From NCBI GenBank assembly GCA_944321015.1, contig CALUJS010000001.1, forward strand, positions 62,001 through 126,000: DNA of 64,000 nucleotides. Reading direction: 5' to 3'. Made by a program: the position numbers and the translations under genes. This document shows, in pieces, positions 1,486 through 60,315 of this stretch. Position 1 is the stretch's first letter. Each line of letters begins with the position of its first letter. The notes under the pieces are model-generated. The model saw only the letters and a list, made by a program, of their open reading frames with translations, was not told where the DNA came from and did no database searches. The stretch is from an uncultured Phocaeicola sp. (GTDB lineage Bacteria; Bacteroidota; Bacteroidia; Bacteroidales; Bacteroidaceae).

Positions 1486-1573
1486 TCGGGCGTGAGCGGA
1501 GATATGGTCGCTCGTGAGCGGGAACGTCGCGGCTCCCGGCTGTGCATATGCTCGCTCGTGCCGGTCTGTAATG
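1486..1573. repeat. 22-bp-period dyad array, locus 1
   Basis: Degenerate tandem units lie in the divergent gap between the dehydrogenase and the gene at 1728. ATATGG starts at 1502 and ATATGC at 1546, exactly 44 bases apart, with a decayed ACGTCG core at 1524 between them. The 16-base linkers resemble TCGCTCGTGAGCGGGA, itself a near-perfect inverted repeat. The same unit recurs at 21058, 36852, 54319 and 60244. The rest of the 1250-1727 gap shows only a -7-like element at 1695. Confidence 0.75.
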
Positions 1574-7424: not shown

Positions 7425-7469
7425 ATATGGCCTCCCGCCCGAATGAGGCAGGGAGTGTCCGCTAAATCT

Positions 7470-7532
7470 TATGTCAGACTTAAGAATTTCTATGTCTGAC
7501 GTAGAAATTTCTATGTCTGACATAGAAAATGC
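7470..7532. repeat. 21-bp-period dyad array upstream of fecR of system A
   Basis: Three tandem 21-bp units begin at 7470, 7491 and 7512, each starting TATGTC. Two kinds of dyad alternate: GAAATTTC across unit joints, and TATGTC-T-GACATA within the third unit. Because 21 is divisible by 3, both strands read as seven-residue repeats (SDVEISM-like). It lies between a terminator and the fecR start, so I treat it as non-coding. Confidence 0.8.
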
Positions 7533-7679
7533 TGTGGCAAGATGCAGTGATACAGCTCGATATACTCTGCTTCCCGCGTCGGGTGCATGTTGCCTCTTCC
7601 TGATTTTCCGAATAATTTTTCGCCTTTGCACTACCCCATTTGTTTCCTTCGGCTGTTATATCTACAGTTACGGAATGTT

Positions 7680-21057: not shown

Positions 21058-21166
21058 ATATTTCATGGAGTTGAGCCGGAATATGGAGGCGTCGGAGCCG
21101 GCATATGGACGCTCGCGGGCCGGGATATGGTCGCTCGTAAGCGTCCATATGGACGGACACGGGCGG
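21058..21166. repeat. 22-bp-period dyad array, locus 2
   Basis: ATATGG stands at 21081, 21103, 21125 and 21147, a strict 22-base period, with a decayed ATATTT at 21058. Linkers include TCGCTCGTAAGCGTCC and ACGCTCGCGGGCCGGG. It lies between the end of the alpha/beta hydrolase and the start of aroA, which it would precede on the minus strand. The rest of the 20957-21277 gap holds nothing I recognise. Confidence 0.9.
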
Positions 21167-28139: not shown

Positions 28140-29588
28140 ATGAAGATATTATTTGTATGCCTGGGCAACATCTGCCGCTCGTCGGCCGCAGAGGAAATCA
28201 TGCGGACGCTCGTGCGCCGGGCCGGGCTGGAAGAGGTGATCGAGGTCGACTCGGCCGGCATCCTCGCTTATCATCAGGGCGAGCTGCCCGACCCGCGCAT
28301 GAGGGCGCATGCCGCCCGGCGCGGCTATACGCTGACCCACTGCTCGCGGCCCGTGACGACCGACGACTTCTATGCCTTCGACCTCATCATCGGCATGGAC
28401 GACCGCAATGTGGACGACCTGCGCGAACGCGCTCCCGGAGTGGAGGAAGAGGCGAAGGTCCGCCGCATGGCCGACTATTGCGTCCGTAAGGCGGCTGACT
28501 GCGTGCCCGACCCCTACTATGGCGGGGCATCGGGTTTCGAGAACGTGCTGGACATACTCGAGGATGCCTGCGCCGGACTGCTGGACAAGCTTTCCGCCCC
28601 CACCTATTCGCTGATTGTCCCCGTCTATAACCGCCCCGACGAGGTGGACGAGCTGCTCGACAGCCTGACACGTCAGACGCTGGGAGACTTTGAGGTCATC
28701 GTCGTGGAGGATGGCTCCACCCGGCCCTGCGCCGACGTGGCGGAGCGTTACGCCGGCCGTCTGCACATACGTTATTACGCAAAGCCCAACTCCGGACCCG
28801 GACAGACGCGCAACTACGGCGCCGAACGCGCCCGGGGACGCTACCTCATCGTGCTCGACTCGGACTGCATCCTGCCGCCGGGCTATCTGGCGGCGGTCGA
28901 CGAGGAACTGCGGCGCGACCCGGCGGACGCCTTCGGAGGGCCCGACCGCGCCCATCCGTCGTTCACCCCCGTGCAGAAGGCCATCAACTATGCCATGACC
29001 TCATTCTTCACCACGGGGGGCATCCGCGGGGGACGGAGGCAGATGGAGCGTTTCCATCCGCGCAGCTTCAACATGGGCATCCGAGCCGACGTCTATCGGG
29101 CGCTGGGGGGATTCTCGAAGATGCGCTTCGGCGAGGACATCGACTTCAGCATCCGCATCTTCCGCGCCGGATACCGCTGCCGCCTCTTCCCCGGGGCATG
29201 GGTGTGGCACAAGCGGCGCACGGACCTGCGCAAGTTCTTCCGGCAGGTGCACAACTCGGGCATTGCCCGCATCAATCTCTATAAGAAATATCCCGACTCG
29301 CTGAAGGCGGTCCATCTGCTTCCGGCGGCGTTCACCGTGGGGACGGCCCTGCTGCTGATGGCCGCGCCGTGGTGGCCGTGGAGCCTGACGCCTCTGGCCC
29401 TGTTCGCCCTCATCGTCTGCGCTGACGCGGCGGCTCGGAACCGCAGCCTGCGCATCGGGCTGCTGGCGGTGGCGGCCTCGTTTGTGCAGCTCACGGGCTA
29501 CGGCAGCGGATTCCTGCGCGCCTGGTGGCAGCGTTGCGTGAGGGGACGTGACGAGTTTTCGGCCTTCGACAAGAACTTCTACAAGTGA
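28140..29588 (+). CDS. Fused low-molecular-weight tyrosine phosphatase and family 2 glycosyltransferase
   Basis: 482 residues in one frame. Residues 1-158 are a low-molecular-weight protein tyrosine phosphatase: the P-loop VCLGNICRSSAAE near the start and the general-acid loop PDPYYGG near residue 125. From about residue 162 a GT2 domain begins (YSLIVPVYNRPDEVDELLDSL, VIVVEDGSTRP, VLDSDCILPPGY, GGFSKMRFGEDIDFSIR). Two C-terminal membrane helices end FDKNFYK. In Bacteroides as I recall them these are two separate genes. The join LLDKLSAPTYS has no stop or internal ATG. The frame continues upstream to a GTG at 28098, and an ATG at 28119 is possible; ATG at 28140 gives the standard phosphatase start. 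Confidence 0.85.
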   Translation: MKILFVCLGNICRSSAAEEIMRTLVRRAGLEEVIEVDSAGILAYHQGELPDPRMRAHAARRGYTLTHCSRPVTTDDFYAFDLIIGMDDRNVDDLRERAPGVEEEAKVRRMADYCVRKAADCVPDPYYGGASGFENVLDILEDACAGLLDKLSAPTYSLIVPVYNRPDEVDELLDSLTRQTLGDFEVIVVEDGSTRPCADVAERYAGRLHIRYYAKPNSGPGQTRNYGAERARGRYLIVLDSDCILPPGYLAAVDEELRRDPADAFGGPDRAHPSFTPVQKAINYAMTSFFTTGGIRGGRRQMERFHPRSFNMGIRADVYRALGGFSKMRFGEDIDFSIRIFRAGYRCRLFPGAWVWHKRRTDLRKFFRQVHNSGIARINLYKKYPDSLKAVHLLPAAFTVGTALLLMAAPWWPWSLTPLALFALIVCADAAARNRSLRIGLLAVAASFVQLTGYGSGFLRAWWQRCVRGRDEFSAFDKNFYK

Positions 29589-30280
29589 TGGAGAAGCGGT
29601 TGACCATACAGCAGTGGGCGCCCGACGACCGCCCGCGCGAGAAGATGATGGCCCACGGGGCGGGCGCGCTGAGCGATGCCGAGCTGCTGGCCATCCTCAT
29701 CGGGTCGGGCAGCAGCGACGAGACGGCCGTGGAGCTGATGCGCCGGGTGTTGGCCTCGTGTCGCAACGACCTGGGCGACCTTGGGAAGATGGGGCTGGAG
29801 GAGCTGTGCGCCTTCAAGGGCATCGGCCCGGCCAAGGCGGTTACCATCCTGGCCGCGTCGGAACTGGGGAAGCGGCGCGCGGCGGCCGAGCACGTGCGCG
29901 AACGGGTGTGCGTCGCCTCGTCGAGAGACATCTATGCCTATTTCCACAACAAGCTGTGCGACCTGCCGGTGGAGGAGTGTTGGGTGATGATGCTCAACCA
30001 CGGCCTGAAGGTTGTCGACAGCGTGCGCATCAGCGCGGGGGGACTGACGGGGACGGTGGTCGACGTGCGGCTGGTGTTGCGCGAGGCGTTGCTGCGCCGG
30101 GCTTCGGCCATCGCCCTGTGTCACAATCATCCGTCGGGGAATGTCCGTCCGAGCGCGGACGACGACCGTCTGACGGAGCGTCTGGCGCGGGCGGCTTCCT
30201 GCATGGACATACGGCTGATTGACCACGTGGTCCTGACCGACGGGGCCTATTACAGCTATGCCGACGAGGGGAAGCTCTGA
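29588..30280 (+). CDS. radC: RadC-family JAB/MPN-domain protein
   Basis: 230 residues. An N-terminal UPF0758/HhH region (LSDAELLAILIGSG, GIGPAKAVTILAASELGKR) is followed by the MPN/JAB metalloprotease-like domain with the motif CHNHPSGNVRPSADDDRLT. Once named as DNA repair proteins, RadC family members have no settled function. The ATG overlaps the preceding stop (TGATG), so it is translationally coupled to the phosphatase-glycosyltransferase gene. A GC-rich terminator follows. Confidence 0.93.
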   Translation: MEKRLTIQQWAPDDRPREKMMAHGAGALSDAELLAILIGSGSSDETAVELMRRVLASCRNDLGDLGKMGLEELCAFKGIGPAKAVTILAASELGKRRAAAEHVRERVCVASSRDIYAYFHNKLCDLPVEECWVMMLNHGLKVVDSVRISAGGLTGTVVDVRLVLREALLRRASAIALCHNHPSGNVRPSADDDRLTERLARAASCMDIRLIDHVVLTDGAYYSYADEGKL

Positions 30281-30356: not shown

Positions 30357-30606
30357 TGCCTGCTCCTCGCGTGTGTCTCAGTCAGTAAGGTGTACACATT
30401 ACGTGCCATAAGGTGTACACCTTACGTGGTGAAAGGTGTACACCTTTCTTCGGAAGGCGCAAGTGTGTCCATGCCATCGACAGACGTGTCTCATTGCCTG
30501 CTTCTCACGTGCGTCTCCACCGGAAAGGTATATACCTTACATGGCGAAAGGTATATACCTTACGGGTCATAAGGCATATACCTTTCTACTGAAGGCGCAC
30601 GTCAGT
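30357..30606. repeat. Two-tier 23-bp-period palindrome array
   Basis: Two blocks of three units each. Block one has AAGGTGTACACCTT-type palindromes at 30387, 30410 and 30433. Block two has AAGGTATATACCTT-type palindromes at 30525, 30548 and 30571. The period is exactly 23, and the blocks are 138 bases (6 x 23) apart. Each block is preceded by a related TGCCTGCTCCTCGCGTGTG-like lead and followed by GAAGGCGCA, so the whole cassette is duplicated. It lies in the convergent gap between radC and susD of system B. Confidence 0.92.
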
Positions 30607-30624
30607 CGCGAGGATTGACGGACG

Positions 30625-32082
30625 TCACTTGGAGTTTTGTGTCAACGCGCTGGTCTGCATGGCGCGCAGGGGGAAGGGGAACGTCAGCAGATGCGAGTCG
30701 GGGGCGAGGGTGAACGTGTGGGTCGTGCCCTGACTGTCGACATAGGTCTTGGTGAGCGTCTCGCCCAGTTCGGCCGCGAAGCGGCGCATGTCGAAGAAGT
30801 CGTTGCAGCTGGTCACCAGCTCGCGGCGGCGTTCCTCGCGGACGAAGCGCAAGGCGCTGTCGGCATTGTCGCCCAGGTCGTCGGCCGTCAGGGGCACGTA
30901 GTCGAGCAGCCGCTTCTCGCGCAGGGCGTTCAGATAGTCGGCCGTGAGGGTGCGGTCGCCTTGGCGGGCATAGCATTCGGCGATGATGAGGTAGACCTCG
31001 GAGAGGCGCATGCCGGCTTCGTTGAGCTTGATGTTGGTGCCATACATGAAGGCCACGCTGCCCTCTTCGGCGGTGGGTCGCTGGGCCATGTTCCAGGAGA
31101 AGACGCCCCGGTAGCGCACGTCGCGCTGCTTGTCGTAGAGGTCGGCAGTGGCCTTGTTGAGCATCGTGGCATTGAACACGGCGTTCATGGGCTGATAGAG
31201 GAGGTTTTCGGGGTCATCGTGTCCGTGCATGCCGTTCATGAGCACCATGCCGTATATCCAGTCCTGCGAGAGGTCGGTGCCCGCGCCGAAGGAGTTGTCG
31301 GCCGTCTCCTGGAGCCATGCGGGCATGTCCCAGAGGCGGTGGTTGCCGTGCTTGAGCGCTTCGAGTGCGGCCTCGAGGGCGTCGGTGTATTGGCGCATGT
31401 AGAGCATCACCTTGGCCTTGAAGGCATATCCGAAGGCTTTGTCGGGGCGGTAGGTGTTGAGGGCCTGTTCGGGCAGGTCGGGGATGGCCTCGTCGATGTC
31501 GCGGCAGATGAGGGCGTAGGCGTCGGCCACGGTGCCCTGCGTGCTTTCGGCTTCGAGGTCGAACTCCGTGTGGATGATGATGCCGCGGTCGGTTTCGGCG
31601 GTTTCGGGGTCATAGGGCTTGGCGAAGGTGTTGACGAGCCAGAAGTAGTTGTAGGCTCGCATCACCTTGGCCTGTGCTGTGGCCAGGCGTTTGTCGCTCG
31701 CGGGTCCTTCGGCGTCGCCGATGTTGTCGATGATGATGTTGTAGCGGCTGATGCGGGCGTAGCAGTTGTTGTAGAGCTGCGACTCTCCGGCGTCGTCGTC
31801 CATGTATTGTGCGCGGTCGACGCTTTCGTCCCAGAAGTAGGATGAGGAGATGAGCGGGAAGGAGTATCCGTCGAGCTGGCTTCGGTCGTAGTAGGTCACG
31901 ACGTTGGCCAGATAGCCGAATTCGGAGCCGGTGTAGGTTGGCATTTCCTCTTCAAGCAGTCCCAGATAGTCGTCGGTGGTGTTGAGCACGGCTTCCCCCT
32001 TGGGCGTGATGTCCAGATAATTGTCGCAAGCCGCGAAGGCTGTCAGGAGGTAGATTCCGGTAAGTAGTTTATTGAGTTTCAT
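30625..32082 (-). CDS. SusD/RagB-family outer-membrane lipoprotein (system B)
   Basis: 485 residues. The lipoprotein signal is LLTAFAAC followed by DNYLDITPKGEAV. Family landmarks are AKVMRAYNYFWLVNTFAKPYD, AFGYAFKAKVMLYMRQY and MRLSEVYLIIAECYARQG, ending with an LLTFPFPLRAMQ segment. It is the last gene of system B; no DUF4843, PKD-like or thioredoxin gene follows. Its sequence is clearly different from the SusD proteins of systems A, C and D (LD-I-TPKGE instead of SDWLDV-type start), so the ligand class may differ. The ligand is unknown. Confidence 0.95.
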   Translation of the reverse strand: MKLNKLLTGIYLLTAFAACDNYLDITPKGEAVLNTTDDYLGLLEEEMPTYTGSEFGYLANVVTYYDRSQLDGYSFPLISSSYFWDESVDRAQYMDDDAGESQLYNNCYARISRYNIIIDNIGDAEGPASDKRLATAQAKVMRAYNYFWLVNTFAKPYDPETAETDRGIIIHTEFDLEAESTQGTVADAYALICRDIDEAIPDLPEQALNTYRPDKAFGYAFKAKVMLYMRQYTDALEAALEALKHGNHRLWDMPAWLQETADNSFGAGTDLSQDWIYGMVLMNGMHGHDDPENLLYQPMNAVFNATMLNKATADLYDKQRDVRYRGVFSWNMAQRPTAEEGSVAFMYGTNIKLNEAGMRLSEVYLIIAECYARQGDRTLTADYLNALREKRLLDYVPLTADDLGDNADSALRFVREERRRELVTSCNDFFDMRRFAAELGETLTKTYVDSQGTTHTFTLAPDSHLLTFPFPLRAMQTSALTQNSK

Positions 32083-36809: not shown

Positions 36810-36851
36810 ATCGGTGTGTTTATTTCCAATCGGTCATCGGTTTGAGGGGCA

Positions 36852-36965
36852 ATATGTTCAGGCGTAAGCGTCCATATGCCCGGCCGCGAGCGGATATATC
36901 CCCGCTCATGAGCCTCCATATCTTCCGTCGGGTAAGGTCGTATGACCGTTCGGGTTTATATCTCT
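36852..36965. repeat. 22-bp-period dyad array, locus 3
   Basis: Units are in strict phase at 36852 (ATATGT), 36874 (ATATGC), 36896 (ATATCC), 36918 (ATATCT) and 36940 (GTATGA), then a slipped ATAT at 36958. Linkers include CCGCTCATGAGCCTCC and CCGGCCGCGAGCGGAT. It lies between the ECF sigma gene and fecR of system B, upstream of fecR. The 36966-37078 remainder is A/T-rich with a small CCCGTTACGGG inverted repeat. Confidence 0.85.
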
Positions 36966-54143: not shown

Positions 54144-54318
54144 TATATAATTGAAAAGATTGGCAAAATTTGTTGGGAAAATATAAGGGGTGGGGCAACT
54201 TTTAACATTTTGCTTCCCGCTCCCGGTGCATATGGGGCCAAATTGCTATGTGGAGTGAGCAAAATGGAGGTTTAAAGTTTTCCCTCTCGAGGGGATACAC
54301 GTGCGCCTTTGAGCGTCC

Positions 54319-54398
54319 ATATTGTCGCTTGCGAGCGACCATATTCCCGCTCGTGAGCGCGGATATGTCCGCTCACGGGCGTCCATATTCGCGCGTTC
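54319..54398. repeat. 22-bp-period dyad array, locus 4
   Basis: ATATTG at 54319, ATATTC at 54341, ATATGT at 54363 and ATATTC at 54385, in strict 22-base phase. Linkers TCGCTTGCGAGCGACC, CCGCTCGTGAGCGCGG and CCGCTCACGGGCGTCC are near-perfect inverted repeats. The array ends about 75 bases before the fecR start of system D. Confidence 0.9.
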
Positions 54399-60229: not shown

Positions 60230-60315
60230 CGTTTCGAGCGTCAATATGGCGGCTCGGACGCGGACATATGGACGGACGCAAGCGCGCATATGCCCGCTCG
60301 AACGGCCCGCATGAT
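60230..60315. repeat. 22-bp-period dyad array, locus 5, between susC and susD of system D
   Basis: ATATGG at 60244 and 60266 and ATATGC at 60288, in strict 22-base phase, with a decayed next core at 60310. Linkers include CGGCTCGGACGCGGAC and ACGGACGCAAGCGCGC. It starts two bases after the susC stop and fills most of the 136-base intercistronic gap. Confidence 0.85.

Follow-up and report, generated by a model that had tools for sequence, protein, structure and literature searches.

Among described elements, the BrickBuilt minisatellite of Porphyromonas gingivalis comes nearest to the array analyzed here. BrickBuilt consists of intergenic 23-nt units in tandem, bounded by a leader and a tail; it is present in 19 copies of up to 22.8 units and carries IS5-like terminal inverted repeats of the GAGACCTTTGCA type (PMC4596501). 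Its authors note dyad symmetry, raise the possibility of compensatory mutations and report the element only from P. gingivalis and P. gulae, drawing no link to an HU protein; the shortest copy, BrickBuilt_14, measures 84 nt, has no terminal repeats and adjoins PGN_0872, a PF00216 (HU-type) DNA-binding protein (PMC4596501). By description, our array is also a 23-nt tandem repeat without spacer between units, intergenic, multi-copy and provided with a leader and a tail, whereas terminal inverted repeats such as those of BrickBuilt are not visible by eye around it. REP/RAYT systems resemble the arrays described below in having intergenic palindromes, some of them cognate copies next to a particular protein's gene and others in trans; RAYT, however, is a transposase-like nuclease, whereas HU-HIG, the protein at issue here, is an HU-fold architectural protein. 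The matS sites of E. coli, bound by a dedicated protein (MatP), resemble the 22-bp family described below in that many short palindromic sites lie along the chromosome, but each is an isolated 13-bp site and all fall within one macrodomain, whereas the 22-bp family forms four-dyad arrays, present in all of the larger stretches sampled.

The window, i.e., the whole stretch of 64,000 nucleotides analyzed here, which derives from an uncultured Phocaeicola sp., contains a strand-neutral run of twelve 23-bp-phased dyads at 30364-30639. The run is composed of two six-unit cassettes of 138 bp (30364-30501 and 30502-30639), each containing three AAGGTRTAYACCTT dyads with weaker ACGT-centered dyads on either side; the 23-bp unit consists of a 14-bp core and a 9-bp spacer. 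Block 1 (30387..30446) comprises three core units AAGGTGTACAC[A/C]TT starting at 30387, 30410 and 30433, and block 2 (30525..30584) comprises AAGGTATATACCTT twice and AAGGCATATACCTT once, starting at 30525, 30548 and 30571. Degenerate units with an ACGT-type center, GGCGCAAGTGTGTC, GACAGACGTGTCTC and TTCTCACGTGCGTC (30456..30515), link the two blocks, and the degenerate units GGCGCACGTCAGTC and GACGGACGTCACTT (30594..30630) trail them. The run is intergenic, lying between a radC-family gene on the left (29585..30280, forward strand; PF04002), which is not part of the system, and a convergent SusD-family gene on the right (30625..32082, reverse strand; PF14322 and PF07980), whose stop is touched by the last degenerate unit with an overlap of a few bases.

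The initial annotation had described two three-unit blocks offset by exactly 138 bases, and unit positions and sequences agree with this description. The lead and trail sequences, which it took for duplicated flanks, do belong to the cassette duplication but are themselves degenerate dyads that keep the 23-bp phase, a feature it had missed. Four of the six core dyads are perfect, and the first and the last each carry one single-sided change. Summed over the 23-bp phase, dyad symmetry of the array reaches z=10 (8 units), compared with a best z of about 5 at any other place or period in the window by the same test. As the two cassettes are identical at only 90 of 138 positions, the cassette duplication must be old. 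A CRISPR array was rejected because 14-bp cores with 9-bp spacers are not exact repeats with unique spacers of ~30 bp and because radC and susD, with no cas genes, are the neighbors; a protein-coding repeat was rejected because 23 is not divisible by three and the array is not covered by any convincing gene.

A search of the source genome (G000; 2.97 Mb in 105 contigs), whose relatives by sequence are Bacteroidales, for further AAGG arrays with 23-base phase, a check proposed at the outset, found the motif in the window and at one other place only, near 12551-12637 of contig C15. There, the array directly follows a Bacteroidetes-type -7 element (TATCTTTGC), a well-established promoter element, and occupies the promoter/5'UTR of an HU-HIG gene (C15:12702; PF18291). 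The two AAGG blocks of the window align to this array with identities of 0.85 and 0.78, above shuffled maxima of 0.62 and 0.57, respectively. Paired AAGG units were found in none of 60 relatives in a first sample, and scanning 84,980 genomes for a pair of phased units returned 15 loci, the matches comprising seven Bacteroides-labelled MAGs, one Prevotellaceae MAG (with a 22-bp phase) and two chance matches. All seven Bacteroides-labelled MAGs carry the array in the promoter of an HU-HIG gene (the orthologous locus at L027, L028, L035 and L038; L032; L056; L057), together with further copies in trans at varied places. At the HU-HIG genes throughout this AAGG clade, about 1-10 bp separate the -7 motif from the start of the array, which thus covers the start site. 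Moreover, the core type in trans (TATA or GTAC) is generally shared with the array at that genome's own HU-HIG gene, and both types are present in the window array and in L029. A viral origin was rejected, as no viral contig of IMG/VR carries the paired AAGG pattern.

These patterns lead us to favor, as the probable though by no means certain explanation, that the window array comprises cognate DNA sites of the HU-HIG protein C15:12702, with predicted binding that would exert autoregulation in cis and have a regulatory or architectural role in trans. HU proteins are usually viewed as non-specific DNA packers, and IHF is a known sequence-specific member of the HU/IHF superfamily. The array-linked proteins belong to the HU-HIG/HU_rel family (PF18291, TIGR01201): they are PF18291 members with an HU/IHF-like fold by profile, and TIGR01201 is matched by 14/14 HU-HIG proteins, with L008 below its cut-off. 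The profile of the 14 aligned HU-HIG proteins matches structures of HU and of IHF, with IHF beta at E=2e-5; an AlphaFold model (five sequences) is weak, with a pLDDT of 59, and its best PDB neighbors are HU/IHF at an E of about 1e-2. A homodimer of the HU fold would naturally read a dyad. HU-HIG proteins are reportedly strongly expanded in Bacteroidetes and were, according to Burroughs et al. in 2017, proposed to recognize invading elements, a role with which the absence of the AAGG pattern from IMG/VR contrasts. Many HU-HIG proteins of the source genome (L087, L088, L091, L092, L094, L095 and L097) end in a shared acidic-glycine tail (GEDGGL), which is absent from the HU-HIG proteins of the AAGG clade.

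In the proposed mechanism, an HU-HIG homodimer would recognize each 14-bp dyad and, the dyads being about two helical turns apart, several dimers could assemble side by side. Such an assembly at the protein's own promoter would block the start site and result in autorepression, and trans copies, e.g., the window array between convergent genes, would serve as a regulatory or architectural node. Selection for binding would hold the cores, and inter-palindrome recombination would reshuffle the copies through block duplication and inversion in place. As the flanking ACGT-type units that link the two blocks resemble, on moderate evidence, the array upstream of a further HU-HIG paralog (C5:77557), the C15 and C5 paralogs may share the window platform.

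The association between HU-HIG genes and tandem arrays extends beyond the AAGG motif. The source genome has 12 HU-HIG genes in addition to two ordinary HU genes, and most of the former carry an array of their own, mostly upstream and differing in sequence (AGATGTACGTCT, CACACGTCT, CCGCACCGAAGGCGACCTGTTCA and others). Across many Bacteroidales families, 83 of 120 HU-HIG genes have a tandem array of period 20-24 bp (identity at least 0.65) within 350 bp, usually of paralog-specific sequence, with best periods of 21 (10 arrays), 22 (39), 23 (28) and 24 (6). Arrays with periods of 28-32 and 15-19 accompany 5% and 3% of the HU-HIG genes, and one of eight canonical HU genes has an array of the HU-HIG type. 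When frequencies were compared in four genomes other than the source genome, arrays accompanied 21/37 HU-HIG genes versus 18/252 control genes (odds ratio 17, p=6e-12), the controls being taken from 100 kb of these genomes picked without regard to arrays. In those stretches, eight of nine arrays have a period of 21-23 or 44. Some of them resemble, by eye, units adjacent to HU-HIG genes of the same genome (G059 and G016). In several genomes HU-HIG genes have no detectable array (0/3 in G164 and 0/2 in G047). Arrays are present in all gene orientations. Dyads are enriched in HU-HIG-adjacent arrays (Fisher chi2 322, 164 df) and 19/82 reach p<=0.05 individually, such that dyad symmetry is enriched but not universal among them. 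HU-HIG proteins that are related tend to have similar array units (Mantel r=0.15, p=0.001), a similarity that could be explained by shared descent of the flanking DNA. Searches of the open literature, with the main HU-HIG paper outside our coverage, turned up nothing connecting HU-HIG genes with tandem arrays, and paralog-specific tandem arrays next to such genes are, to our knowledge, unreported.

To what extent do the arrays of one chromosome correspond to its HU-HIG paralogs? In 464 kb of the source genome, i.e., the window plus 20 stretches not chosen for arrays, all tandem arrays in the period range 15-34 have periods of 21, 22 or 23 bp. In a set of 22 arrays, which leaves out one coding repeat and adds the array at 54311, 18 match one specific HU-HIG-adjacent array with identities of 0.72-0.93, above every shuffle: 14 of the 22-bp family, the two AAGG blocks, a 21-bp array and one 23-bp array (L193). 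Three 22-bp arrays (L199:4117-4196, L202:1963-2245 and L204:3195-3282) match no HU-HIG-adjacent array found. In the window, the arrays match three HU-HIG paralogs. The AAGG blocks (30376 and 30516) correspond to C15, and the strand-neutral 21-bp array TAGAAATTTCTATGTCTGAC at 7460..7541 corresponds to the array 3' of the paralog C14:5661, with an identity of 0.80 versus a shuffled maximum of 0.68. The third paralog, on C20, is matched by two strand-neutral four-unit arrays of the 22-bp family, at 21073..21160 (GAGCGnnCATATGnnCGCTCGC type) and 54311..54398. Additional 22-bp-family arrays, again without strand, are a more degenerate one of four units at 36843..36930 and two of about three units at 1487..1557 and 60236..60301. 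Having a tandem period within 21-24 bp and matching a same-genome HU-HIG-adjacent array, the AAGG array of the window is a candidate member of the proposed HU-HIG-associated class.

The 22-bp family (GAGCGnnCATATGnnCGCTCGC), far more abundant than the AAGG arrays, accounts for 82 arrays in 701 kb of the source genome, 66 of which have exactly four units. None of the 82 lies inside genes as called, the calls being crude, and none was found in reversed or complemented control sequence. Gaps between neighboring arrays average 8.1 kb, with none below 3.4 kb and a CV of 0.53, whereas random intergenic placement gives a CV of 0.81 +- 0.09 and 18.5 gaps under 3.4 kb, with a minimum of 7 in 3000 trials. 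This quasi-regular spacing is a finding that stands by itself. Linking the family to the C20 HU-HIG gene by adjacency alone was rejected as proof; the adjacency is not significant and proves nothing by itself, because the family fills so many intergenic regions (about 40% of those of 120 bp or more). As a tentative extension, which we regard as possible but doubtful, each Bacteroidales HU-HIG paralog might own a private dyad code, recurring at intervals of two helical turns and present at its gene and at chromosomal sites, with at least one family marking the chromosome quasi-regularly (four dyads, a minimum of ~3.5 kb and some hundreds of sites per genome), amounting to sequence-addressed chromatin with several parallel addresses. 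If this were true, HU-HIG proteins of abundant gut bacteria would make up a large and still unexplored group of architectural proteins that recognize specific sequences and whose target codes can be read. The puzzling minisatellites of 21-24 bp, with BrickBuilt perhaps among them, would then be accounted for, and the spaced 22-bp family would offer a direct way of testing how these chromosomes are organized.

The best-surviving alternative, although unlikely in our judgment, is a mobile or MITE-like minisatellite of the BrickBuilt kind, in which proximity to HU-HIG genes would reflect insertion preference or history rather than binding. The arrays are indeed intergenic and multi-copy, the 138-bp cassette was duplicated together with its flanking units, and BrickBuilt provides a precedent, being a 23-nt intergenic repeat that varies in its number of units and shows signs of having moved (PMC4596501). 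However, at the orthologous HU-HIG locus of four species the array, of four units in each, starts 126 bp before the ATG, and across the clade it sits just after the -7 element, a fixed position unexpected for random insertion. The unit number is also constant, as seen in the 22-bp family, and the window array lacks visible IS-type terminal repeats. Mobility and binding are not mutually exclusive.

Sequence comparison at the same orthologous locus bears on whether the dyad itself matters. Cores are 96-100% identical between species, versus 48-93% for spacers (one inverted pair excluded), with third codon positions 78-99% identical. The inverted pair is L027 and L038, from two nearly identical genomes, whose arrays are identical at 64/83 positions in direct orientation and at 82/83 when one is inverted, with flanks identical at 99 and 98 of 100 positions and genes 98% identical; the fast spacer drift apparent in this pair (37% identity) was therefore rejected, the inversion accounting for the difference. 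Because the array has inverted in place, its orientation is immaterial, as would suit sites of a dyad-binding protein. The palindromes themselves were probably the recombining repeats behind the inversion. Consistent with the proposal that the dyad is functional, the cores are conserved while the spacers vary, and the dyads hold a fixed place in the HU-HIG promoter. The symmetric substitution first described in the window is real at pair 6/9, which is complementary in 62/66 core units against 33.7 expected for independence, a figure to which no probability is attached since the units are related copies. The remaining variable pairs show one-sided changes only, and hence core changes are not always symmetric.

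The initial annotation had offered a protein dimer site and an RNA stem side by side. An RNA-level element, with palindromes acting as transcript hairpins in the HU-HIG 5'UTR and at the radC/susD 3' ends, strikes us as improbable, though inter-unit pairing keeps it alive. Folding of either strand is far more favorable than that of shuffles (z -7.4 and -8.9), long hairpins between neighboring units would pair position 6 with 9, and the cis arrays of the AAGG clade are probably transcribed because they lie downstream of the -7 element. Nevertheless, palindromic DNA arrays generally fold well on both strands, and the window array has neither an Rfam family at gathering scores nor, in a search of the region between the convergent genes, a promoter or terminator pattern. 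A single-unit hairpin was rejected as the source of the symmetric change, as it places the covarying pair in its tetraloop, leaving inter-unit hairpins as the possible form. Occupation of all gene orientations, the array inverted in place and the L026 array, which lies upstream of a promoter-like element, likewise speak against an RNA. The protein-dimer reading fits better, because a single-unit hairpin would leave pair 6/9 in its loop and because the array can invert in place.

Equally remote is a neutral minisatellite, in which slippage and hairpin-templated repair would produce perfect palindromes and uniform blocks without selected function. Such a process would explain why the blocks are internally uniform and symmetric change is restricted to one pair, and duplication and inversion were both seen; conserved cores beside drifting spacers, constant unit number and position, the strong HU-HIG association and the 21-23-bp periods of all tandem arrays in the 464 kb argue against it. 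With RNA hairpins, mobility and neutral homogenization as rivals of the proposed HU-HIG binding, some mixture is likely. Homogenization of units, suggested early on for the window, is borne out by core types that are uniform within blocks, by the two core types within L029 and by the array inverted in place, and a functional dyad and homogenization both contribute. At L029 (774-948) the array has eight units, four of TATA type followed by four of GTAC type, against four units at each orthologous locus of two other genomes.
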